A DNA stretch of 64,000 bases from Acidobacteriota bacterium (GTDB lineage Bacteria > Acidobacteriota > Vicinamibacteria > Vicinamibacterales > UBA2999), in contig JAKFYH010000049.1 in assembly GCA_021730945.1 (NCBI GenBank), positions 83,855-147,854 of the forward strand. Direction: 5' to 3'. The position numbers and the translations under genes were made by a program. This document shows, piece after piece, positions 28,742 through 31,448 of the stretch. How positions within the stretch are numbered: position 1 is the first letter of the stretch; every line of letters begins with the position of its first letter. The notes under the pieces are model-generated. The model searched no databases, was not told where the DNA came from, and was given only the letters and a program-made list of their open reading frames with translations.

Positions 28742-28766
28742 CAAGTAGGGGTTCCTCGAACTCATC

Positions 28767-28772
28767 TATACT
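28767..28772 (+). promoter_or_regulatory. Leaderless promoter -10 (TATACT) for kinase 2
   Basis: TATACT ends exactly six bases before ATC at 28779, placing +1 on the A of the proposed start codon. No Shine-Dalgarno exists. Confidence 0.5.
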
Positions 28773-28778
28773 CCCCGC

Positions 28779-31448
28779 ATCCCGCTGCTCCCAGGCTCAC
28801 GCGTAGGTCCATACGAGATTGTCGCGCCGCTTGGTGCTGGCGGTATGGGCGAGGTCTATCGCGCGCGCGATACGAAGTTGAATCGCGACGTTGCGATCAA
28901 GGTGTTGCTGCCCACGGTCGCCAACGATCCGGATCGCCTCGCGCGCTTCAGCCGTGAAGCGCAAGCTGTTGCGGCGCTGAATCACCCCAACATCGTCACC
29001 ATTCACGGCATTGAACGTAGCGACGACACGCAGTTCATCGTCATGGAGCTCGTCGAAGGACAGACGCTCGCAGAGGTGATTCCCAAGGGCGGACTGGCGC
29101 TCGGCCGTCTGCTCGACATCGCCATTCCGCTCGCCGATGCTGTCGCAACGGCGCACGAGCGCGGCATCGTGCATCGCGACCTCAAGCCCGCCAACGTGAT
29201 GGTCGGCGCTCACGGTCGCGTCAAGGTCCTCGACTTCGGCCTGGCGAAGCTGCGCGAATCCACGTCCGCCGATGAAGCGACGATGCCGCCCTCCCCCGAG
29301 CTGACCGGAGAAGGGCGTATTCTCGGCACGGTCGCGTACATGTCCCCGGAACAGGCCGAGGGGAAGCCCGTCGACGCCACCTCAGACGTGTTTTCGTTTG
29401 GCGTGCTGTTGTACGAGATGGCCACGGGTACGCGGCCGTTCAAGGGCGACTCGAGTTTGTCGGTGCTGTCGGCGATCCTGCGCGAGACGCCGGCGCCGAT
29501 CACCGATCTCAATCCCGCGCTGCCGCGCGAGCTCTCGCGCATCGTCCGGAGGTGCCTCGCCAAGGATCCCGATCGCCGTTATCAGTCGGCGAAGGATCTC
29601 CGGAACGATCTCGATGAGCTGAAGCAGCTGATTCAGTCCGGCGACTTGCAATCGGTACCGCTCGTGACTCCTGCGAAGTCGTCGCGCGTGTGGCCTGCCG
29701 TGGCGCTCGTCGCAGCGATCGCCGCGGTCGTTGCCATCGGCGCGTTGGTATGGCGGGGGCCGCCGTTGACCGCCGACCCAGCGACACCGCAGATGACCTT
29801 CAGTCGCTTGACGATGCAGTCGGGCCTGACGACCGGGCCATCGCTTTCACCCGATGGCAAGTGGCTTCTGTATGTCAACGCCGAAAGCGGCAACCCCGAC
29901 ATCTATCTGCAAGCGACGACCGGACAGACCTCGATCAACCTCACGAAAGACTCCACGGCCACCGACTTCATGCCGGTGTTCTCGCCCGATGGCGAGTCGA
30001 TCGCCTTTCGCTCGGAGCGCGACGGCGGGGGCCTTTTCATCATGGGCCGGACTGGCGAATCAGTGCGGCGTCTCACCCAGCGTGGGTTCAACCCGGCGTG
30101 GTTCCCGGATGGCAAGCAGGTGGTGTTTGCGACAGACGCGGGCGGGATTGTTGAAACGCGCTCTGGCAGTGTGAGCGACCTGTGGGTCGTTGCGGCCGCC
30201 GGTGGAGAGCCGCGCCGGCTGTTTGCCGGAGATGCCGTGCAGCCGCGCGTGTCGCCGAATGCGCGCCGTATCGCGTTCTGGAGTCTTCCCACCGACGGGG
30301 ATCCGAAACAGTTCTCGGGGAGCACGCGCGACATCTGGACCATCGCCGCCGATGGCAGTAACCCCGTGAGGGTGACGGCAGACGAAGCCAATGATTGGAA
30401 TCCGAGCTGGTCGCCGGATGGGCGCTGGCTCTACTTCCTCAGCAATCGAGCAGGCAGCATGAACCTGTGGCGGATTGCCATCGACGAGACGAGCGGAGTG
30501 CCAGGTGGTGCGCCGCAGGCGGTTACGGTCCCGGCCGCGTACGTCCGCGACTTCAGTTTATCGGCCGACGGCCGCCTCGGCCTGTACGCGACATCGTCAC
30601 CGACGAGTAACATCGCGCGCGTCCGCTTTGATGCGCGGACCGGCGCCGTCCAGGGGCCGCTCGAGCCGCTGACCAGCGGGACACGTGAGTACTTCCTTCA
30701 GGACGTCAGCCCGGACGGGCAGCAACTCGTCCTCACGACCGGCACACGCGAGCATGAGGACATCTACGTGATGGCGAGCGACGGTCGAGGACTGCGGCAG
30801 CTCACCAACAACGCCGCGCGCAACCGTCAGGTGCATTGGTCCGCCGACGGCATGCATCTCTACTTCTATTCTGACCAGAGCGGACAAATGGAATTGTGGA
30901 TCATCAACCAGGACGGCAGCGGCCTGCGCCAGTTGACGACCTCGGATGGCGGGCGGTTTCATCCGAGCCCATCACCGGATGGCTCGAGGGTCGTCGCGAT
31001 GTCGCCGAATCCGATGCGATTCCAGATGTACGACGTCCGCGATTTCTCGAAGCCCATCGAGACATTGCCCGCGCTCCCGCCAGAACTCGCTTCGTCGAGC
31101 ACCATCATTCAGGAGTGGTCGCCGGATGGCCGGATGCTCCTGTTCACCGCCGATGGCGGCCCGTTGGTCTATTCAGTCACGGCACGAACCTATCGGCGCA
31201 TTCCAGGTGCGGACGGCTTTGCCAGCTGGTTACCCGACAGTCGCCGAGTGCTGATCAGTAACGGACCACTGTGGGTCGTCGATTCGATTTCCGGCGATCG
31301 GCGCGAGGTGTTTGCGCTCCCGGGCGAGGGAGTCGGCGGCGGCCGCGTCAGCGCGGACGGTTCGTATCTGTATTTCGCGCACGGCACCGGTAGCGGTGAC
31401 ATCTGGACGGTCCGCTTTGATGGACCGGCGCCGGTGACCACGCCATGA
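28779..31448 (+). CDS. Receptor Ser/Thr protein kinase 2 with PD40/TolB propeller, non-canonical start
   Basis: About 889 residues read from ATC at 28779. The frame from the stop at 28746-28748 to the ATG at 28845 has no canonical start, although it encodes GSRVGPYEIVAPLGAGGMGEV. Kinase motifs: AIKVLL, HRDLKPANVMV at about residue 132, DFGLAKL, AYMSPEQAEG, RCLAKDPDRRYQSA. This kinase domain is the most divergent of the five (VVAATFN-like region replaced by HERGIV) and lacks the activation-segment insert. TM helix at about 304-325 (VWPAVALVAAIAAVVAIGAL). The propeller is rich in TolB-type blades (SPDGKWLLYVNAESGNPDIY, SPDGQQLVLTTG). Its stop overlaps remnant 2. Confidence 0.88.
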   Translation: MPLLPGSRVGPYEIVAPLGAGGMGEVYRARDTKLNRDVAIKVLLPTVANDPDRLARFSREAQAVAALNHPNIVTIHGIERSDDTQFIVMELVEGQTLAEVIPKGGLALGRLLDIAIPLADAVATAHERGIVHRDLKPANVMVGAHGRVKVLDFGLAKLRESTSADEATMPPSPELTGEGRILGTVAYMSPEQAEGKPVDATSDVFSFGVLLYEMATGTRPFKGDSSLSVLSAILRETPAPITDLNPALPRELSRIVRRCLAKDPDRRYQSAKDLRNDLDELKQLIQSGDLQSVPLVTPAKSSRVWPAVALVAAIAAVVAIGALVWRGPPLTADPATPQMTFSRLTMQSGLTTGPSLSPDGKWLLYVNAESGNPDIYLQATTGQTSINLTKDSTATDFMPVFSPDGESIAFRSERDGGGLFIMGRTGESVRRLTQRGFNPAWFPDGKQVVFATDAGGIVETRSGSVSDLWVVAAAGGEPRRLFAGDAVQPRVSPNARRIAFWSLPTDGDPKQFSGSTRDIWTIAADGSNPVRVTADEANDWNPSWSPDGRWLYFLSNRAGSMNLWRIAIDETSGVPGGAPQAVTVPAAYVRDFSLSADGRLGLYATSSPTSNIARVRFDARTGAVQGPLEPLTSGTREYFLQDVSPDGQQLVLTTGTREHEDIYVMASDGRGLRQLTNNAARNRQVHWSADGMHLYFYSDQSGQMELWIINQDGSGLRQLTTSDGGRFHPSPSPDGSRVVAMSPNPMRFQMYDVRDFSKPIETLPALPPELASSSTIIQEWSPDGRMLLFTADGGPLVYSVTARTYRRIPGADGFASWLPDSRRVLISNGPLWVVDSISGDRREVFALPGEGVGGGRVSADGSYLYFAHGTGSGDIWTVRFDGPAPVTTP

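Follow-up and report, generated by a model that had tools for sequence, protein, structure and literature searches.

Leaderless initiation is usually described as depending on an AUG at the very 5' end, although some groups also tolerate GUG; on E. coli leaderless mRNAs a 5' AUG is preferred and other codons work poorly or not at all (PMC9031893). The effect of initiation factor IF3 on such mRNAs is dual, being inhibitory for some of them when the factor is raised (PMC9031893), and weak third-base pairs are disfavoured by IF3 in vitro (PMC10158994). Leaderless genes were predicted at an average of 13.3% (9.7-19.4) in three Acidobacteria genomes (PMC3160421). Near-cognate starts are known from other genes, e.g., infC, which starts with ATT in E. 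coli and with ATC in Streptomyces, and Streptomyces sigR, whose GTC start is repressed by IF3 (PMC5472188). Leaderless genes and IF3-repressed near-cognate starts are already known, each separately; no report of natural leaderless bacterial genes with an AUC start was recognised in the accessible part of the open-licence literature.

The window analysed here, i.e., the whole stretch of 64,000 nucleotides, lies in a 4.73-Mb draft genome of 67 contigs and contains two neighbouring kinase genes, kinase 1 and kinase 2 (Table 1), that can be compared with these systems. They are like leaderless genes in having a -10 box within the usual distance of about 5-9 bases before the start and in that no Shine-Dalgarno site was seen by eye, but they differ in the 5'-terminal codon, which would be AUC in both window kinases (AUC or AUU among their relatives) and not AUG, GUG, or UUG. 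With infC and sigR they would share a near-cognate start codon without a canonical alternative. AUC itself would be common to the kinases and to infC of the family, but infC, a known case of autoregulation, has a Shine-Dalgarno-like site and encodes the regulator, whereas the kinases lack such a site and would at most be targets. Streptomyces sigR, like the kinases, is a signalling regulator with a non-canonical start and is kept low; it differs in its codon and in the kind of gene, the main text of the paper nowhere uses the word 'leaderless', and the IF3 effect was measured for sigR, whereas we infer it for the kinases (PMC5472188). As a protein, kinase 2 looks ordinary for its group, the Hanks-type Ser/Thr kinases with a C-terminal PD40 propeller; only its start differs.

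Reading of the kinase 2 sequence found no ATG, GTG, or TTG from the in-frame stop at 28746 to the first in-frame ATG at 28845, as the first-pass annotation of this DNA had stated. Its placement of ATC CCG CTG at 28779, exactly six bases past TATACT, was likewise correct, and the leaderless-type spacing that it proposed would fit a -10 box at this distance. No -35 element was recognised by eye upstream of the TATACT. Translated from the ATC, residues 12-270 match the Pfam Pkinase profile from its first position (1-254, E 6.4e-50), PD40 is matched as well, and HRDLKPAN and DFGLAK represent the HRD and DFG motifs of a Hanks-type Ser/Thr kinase. The CTG at 28785 (third codon) was rejected as a start, the same position being TTA, TTC, ATC, CTA, or GTA in other members of the kinase class described below.

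Table 1. Features of the kinase locus and of two comparison genes from the same genome (positions in the window unless a locus is named)
Feature	Position	Strand	Basis or remark
In-frame stop (TAG) upstream of kinase 2	28746..28748	+	Sequence read
Kinase 2 -10 box TATACT	28767..28772	+	Sequence; TATACT in 9/10 and TATAAT in 1/10 members with a six-base gap; flanks beyond -16 unconserved
Kinase 2 six-base spacer CCCCGC	28773..28778	+	Would put the first transcribed base at the A of ATC or beside it
Kinase 2 ATC, proposed AUC start and putative first transcribed bases	28779..28781	+	Genus comparison
Kinase 2, Ser/Thr kinase domain and PD40 propeller repeats, 889 aa from ATC	28779..31448	+	Pfam
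First in-frame ATG of kinase 2, Met of the GGMGEVY ATP loop, implausible start	28845..28847	+	Pkinase profile loss; coding constraint upstream
Kinase 1 -10 box TATACT	25214..25219	+	Sequence read
Kinase 1, proposed AUC start at 25225, 908 aa	25225..27951	+	Sequence, Pfam
Kinase 3, next in cluster, ordinary ATG start	31576..34281	+	ORF list
Kinase 4, ATG start overlapping the kinase 3 stop by four bases	34278..36911	+	ORF list
PIN-domain toxin and Phd/YefM-type antitoxin, plus inverted repeat	28027-28696 and 28713-28748	- (28027-28696)	Between kinases 1 and 2
infC (IF3)	L382 1225-1824	+	Family loci L383-L412
CNNM/CorC transporter, leaderless-type AUC start	L213 17894-19186	-	Family loci L413-L426

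Kinase 1, also a Hanks-type kinase with PD40 propeller repeats, has ATC CCG CTG at 25225, and its sequence contains no ATG, GTG, or TTG between the upstream stop and the ATP-loop ATG. The same ATC anomaly had been claimed for both paralogues; an ATC start without a canonical codon indeed occurs in both, but the gap after TATACT is five bases in kinase 1, not six. Between the two genes lie 827 bases, which hold a toxin-antitoxin pair on the opposite strand; after kinase 2, another kinase follows at a distance of 121 bases. In the gap common to the antitoxin and the kinase 2 promoter, two 14-base arms that are 8 apart and 86% complementary form an inverted repeat, which is perhaps the antitoxin's operator. 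The region 24900-29200 gave no match to an Rfam RNA element at the gathering score.

A survey of kinase starts in related genomes, as the first-pass annotation had suggested, covered 130 distinct kinase N-termini from nine genomes of the genus, which is a large part of them, not all, with weaker matches left out. A further 74 N-termini came from elsewhere, a set that is not strictly outside the family (at least one of them, L065, is perhaps from the family genome G115); L067, with the same N-terminus as L135 of genome G006, was counted in the genus. When a canonical codon was sought at codon positions -20 to -13 relative to the ATP loop, 112 of the 130 genus kinases had one (ATG 70, GTG 21, TTG 21). 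The 18 others have at -17 ATC (10), ATT (2), ACC (1), ATA (1), or other codons (four), and the 13 with ATC, ATT, or ACC are here referred to as the class. The four with other codons comprise L023 and L024, which have canonical codons further upstream, L135 with an ATG at -26, and the broken second frame of L124; in L128, which has the ATA, a -10 box is absent and GTG codons occur upstream. The 10 ATC kinases all carry a -10 box 5-7 bases before the codon (six in eight of them, five and seven in the other two) and are distributed over five genomes (G000 2, G001 1, G005 2, G006 3, G007 2), and this recurrence in other genomes speaks against a sequencing error. Neither the 74 N-termini from elsewhere nor 61 read in other genera of the family have ATC at this place. 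When the kinases of genus and family are taken together, starts preceded by a -10 box at a gap of 5-8 bases are ATC in 10, ATT in 1, ACC in 1, TTG in 8, GTG in 4, and ATG in none of the 130 plus 61, counts that run over paralogues with a common cassette and over relatives and so are not independent, Fisher tests on them being descriptive only. The 74 kinases from elsewhere include two ATG starts at such gaps (6 and 8).

Of the 13 class members, nine (kinases 1 and 2, L039, L127, L132, L134, L142, L150, and L151) have an uninterrupted frame of about 887-958 aa, three are truncated (L041, L124, and L143), and L126 runs off the stretch read. Kinase 2 has no full-length close orthologue in the genus at E 1e-100, the best other genome reaching 48% identity. 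Its upstream antitoxin region is shared, nearly base for base, with a gene of genome G007 that has ACC in place of ATC and whose frame stops at 426 aa; this gene may be dead, but its ACC means that the codon is not absolutely fixed. In the same genome, a kinase remnant (L041, contig C13, near 125313) keeps TATACTCCCCGC-ATC and about 30 N-terminal codons and stops after 44 codons. The possibility that the ATC is an internal isoleucine codon behind an upstream start was considered and found unlikely: in eight of the 13 members the open frame upstream of the ATC is free of canonical codons, and the flanks look unrelated. Canonical codons further upstream occur in L041, L126, L132, and L143, only upstream of the -10 box, and in L151, which has no recognised box. 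This reading is also unlikely because spacers of 5, 6, and 7 bases occur, and such one-base steps would disrupt a frame entering from upstream.

Class members tend to stand apart from a preceding kinase. In each of the seven with a preceding kinase frame in view (kinase 2, L124, L132, L134, L143, L150, and L151), the start lies at least 765 bases past its stop, and a close kinase follower is seen in four, i.e., L132 (ATG, gap 0), L151 (GTG, overlap 4), L127 (GTG, gap 7), and L142 (ATG at -26, overlapping). For the remaining members no kinase is seen close behind, and isolated kinases are also found among those with canonical starts, so it is a tendency that AUC/AUU starts occur mostly on kinases heading clusters, with ATG or GTG on the followers. 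Other unusual kinase starts were also encountered: an acidobacterial kinase (L061) with AGGAGG, six bases, and CTG ATC GGC has no canonical start and likely uses CUG, and L175, L183, L205, and L208 form a separate set sharing TATAAT, seven bases, and TTG ACC, which looks leaderless with a weak start.

A column-by-column comparison of the ten class members with a six-base gap (ATC in 8, ATT in 1, ACC in 1) showed conservation of the block CNNNTATACTCNNNNCATC, while columns upstream of -16 look unrelated. The box itself (TATAMT) varies at one letter only, which is C in nine members and A in one; also invariant are a C four bases upstream of it, the first and the last base of the spacer (both C), and the A of the start codon. 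The invariant C at column -16 (window position 28763) stands among variable bases and is possibly part of an extended -10 signal. In codons -16 to -1 before the ATP loop, the proportion of silent-site differences (pS 0.59) exceeds that of replacement differences (pN 0.21; 66 pairs of 12 genes, L151 left out). Because the differences lie mainly at silent sites, these codons are translated; the four codons closest to the start (-16 to -13) are the least constrained (pN 0.36). The encoded residues also match the N-terminus of ATG-started paralogues.

Between kinase 2 and six other class members, identity is 80-85% over the first 75 residues and then falls to 47-52%, 39-51%, and 25-29%. Because the likeness is limited to the first 75 residues, promoter, start, and N-terminus seem to travel together as a 5' cassette that has been shuffled among kinases. 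Recombination of this cassette is likely in the kinase tree, where 8 changes between the ATY/ACC and the canonical state occur and 11 of 82 tips are ATY/ACC, some branches being weak, and the tree therefore carries no weight in the argument. A duplicated start, as had been proposed, is only part of this picture, the flanks upstream of -16 looking unrelated between most copies.

TATACT-N4..8-ATCCCGCTG has two matches in the 4.73-Mb genome, both at kinases 1 and 2 (reversed control 0), and only two more in 162 genomes of the order, namely, the G007 kinase remnant and a match in G141 whose frame from ATC closes after five codons. With up to 2 mismatches, TATACTCCCCGCATCCC gave 48 matches in 161 genomes versus 16 for the reversed control; 26 of the 48 loci were read, and 10 of these are long frames in which ATG or GTG stands where the kinases have ATC. 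Similar box spacing precedes ATG in other genes of the genome and the order, where TATACT, about six bases, and ATG head ordinary long frames. In 1.26 Mb of the own genome, including the window, boxes 5-9 bases before a coding frame were counted at ATG 39, GTG 11, and ATC 6, with a background of at most 8 for other codons and with kinase 2 falling below the coding-score filter. Against this background, leaderless AUC starts are not a genome-wide habit. Only kinase 1 and a CNNM/CorC transporter gene among the six ATC rows lack canonical starts nearby; two further candidates were rejected, L268, presumably lpxD, with TTG 11 codons on, and L288 with ATG 6 codons on.

The infC gene of the same genome has GGAGG, six bases, and ATC GCC TTC. 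Across the family, the best 30 of 40 infC matches all have a Shine-Dalgarno-like site and start with ATC (28) or ATA (2); a TTG lies at least 18 codons upstream in several of them, and downstream one has an ATG after eight codons and another a GTG after twelve. With infC as an internal control, AUC works as a start codon in this family. The CNNM/CorC gene has TAGAAT, five bases, and ATC GCT ACC GAA, with no ATG, GTG, or TTG before codon 20 and a Pfam CNNM match from residue 6, making it a candidate second leaderless AUC gene. Of 22 family loci, 14 belong to the own genus (9) or to genus g24 (5), and every one of these carries a -10-like box 5-7 bases before ATC; among the remaining eight, an ATG lies three codons further up in seven and occupies the ATC position in one. 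In seven of the 14, a nearby canonical codon might serve instead, i.e., L417, L423, L425, and L426 with GTG or TTG 9-16 codons after the ATC, and L415, L416, and L419 with TTG two codons before it, touching the box. The tolerated non-AUG start raised by the first-pass annotation is strongly supported by its recurrence in five genomes of the genus, by AUC at infC, and, on the same kind of evidence, by CNNM/CorC. Among 44 tRNAs read out of 45 ARAGORN matches, three have the anticodon CAU, one of which (L256) we take to be of initiator type. A special initiator tRNA with anticodon GAU was not found among the 44, a set that is incomplete because it holds no tRNA-Ile(GAU) at all.

Several other explanations of the ATC can be weighed against a leaderless AUC start. 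The AUC at 28779 could be an ordinary weak near-cognate start within a longer leader transcribed from another promoter, as infC uses AUC with a Shine-Dalgarno site in the same genome and the TATACT comes without a visible -35. This is unlikely, since no GGAGG was seen by eye just before the ATC in class members, the -10 box is conserved at 5-7 bases although the flanks further up are unrelated, and a comparable spacing is found before ATG elsewhere in the genome and order. Translation from the ATG at 28845, the first start codon of the frame in the ORF list, would leave the ATC region as an untranslated leader. We give this very little credence, as the upstream codons are conserved as protein and their residues are those of ATG-started paralogues, the Pkinase profile would be matched only from position 13 (a loss of positions 1-12), the glycine-rich loop is complete only if translation begins further upstream, and no GGAGG-like site was seen by eye before this ATG.

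The ATC copies might also be relics with a decayed ATG, or silenced genes on their way out, in line with the three truncated class members, one of which has ACC. Such loss of function is highly improbable for a class in which most members (9/13) are open over their full length, in which ATY persists although silent sites differ by about 0.59, and whose start codon recurs in CNNM/CorC in 14/14 genomes of two genera. Finally, the draft state of the genome might suggest a sequencing or assembly error that turned ATG into ATC twice; the first-pass annotation had already doubted random error, and the same codon with nearly the same spacing in five separate genomes makes this explanation next to impossible.

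Translation of kinases 1 and 2 very probably starts at an AUC at the tip of the mRNA, judging from the comparisons above. Overall, we consider it probable that these kinases have leaderless mRNAs with a weak 5'-terminal AUC start that is probably IF3-sensitive. RNA polymerase would start at the A of ATC or no more than one or two bases away from it, and the ribosome would begin on the 5'-terminal AUC using the ordinary initiator tRNA; counterpoints are the poor performance of codons other than AUG on E. coli leaderless mRNAs and the mismatch of AUC against the CAU anticodon, at the third base. The kinase would be produced slowly, but over its full length and with the ATP loop intact. The weak start may be kept on purpose, lying as it does mostly on cluster-heading kinases and not on their followers. 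Non-canonical starts are a classical target of IF3. IF3 control of the kinases is a reasonable inference because of this and because infC itself has AUC: the kinases would probably be held low and rise when IF3 discrimination relaxes or when 70S initiation is favoured. The low or regulated kinase levels that the first-pass annotation had in mind are plausible in light of the known weakness of such starts and of IF3 biology. A wider reading, which we put forward only tentatively, is that cluster-heading kinases and CNNM/CorC form a small regulon of 5'-AUC/AUU leaderless mRNAs that is read by 70S ribosomes and tied to IF3.

For annotation, the kinases and the CNNM/CorC protein would come out too short from gene finders limited to ATG, GTG, and TTG. 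If the leaderless AUC start is true, natural and conserved AUC/AUU leaderless genes would mean that some bacteria apply the rule for the 5'-terminal codon less strictly or read it in another way, and the genes would provide ready-made reporters for start choice by IF3 and 70S ribosomes. If the regulon also exists, the level of an initiation factor would set the amount of signalling kinases in these bacteria, via a route usually thought to depend on a 5' AUG.
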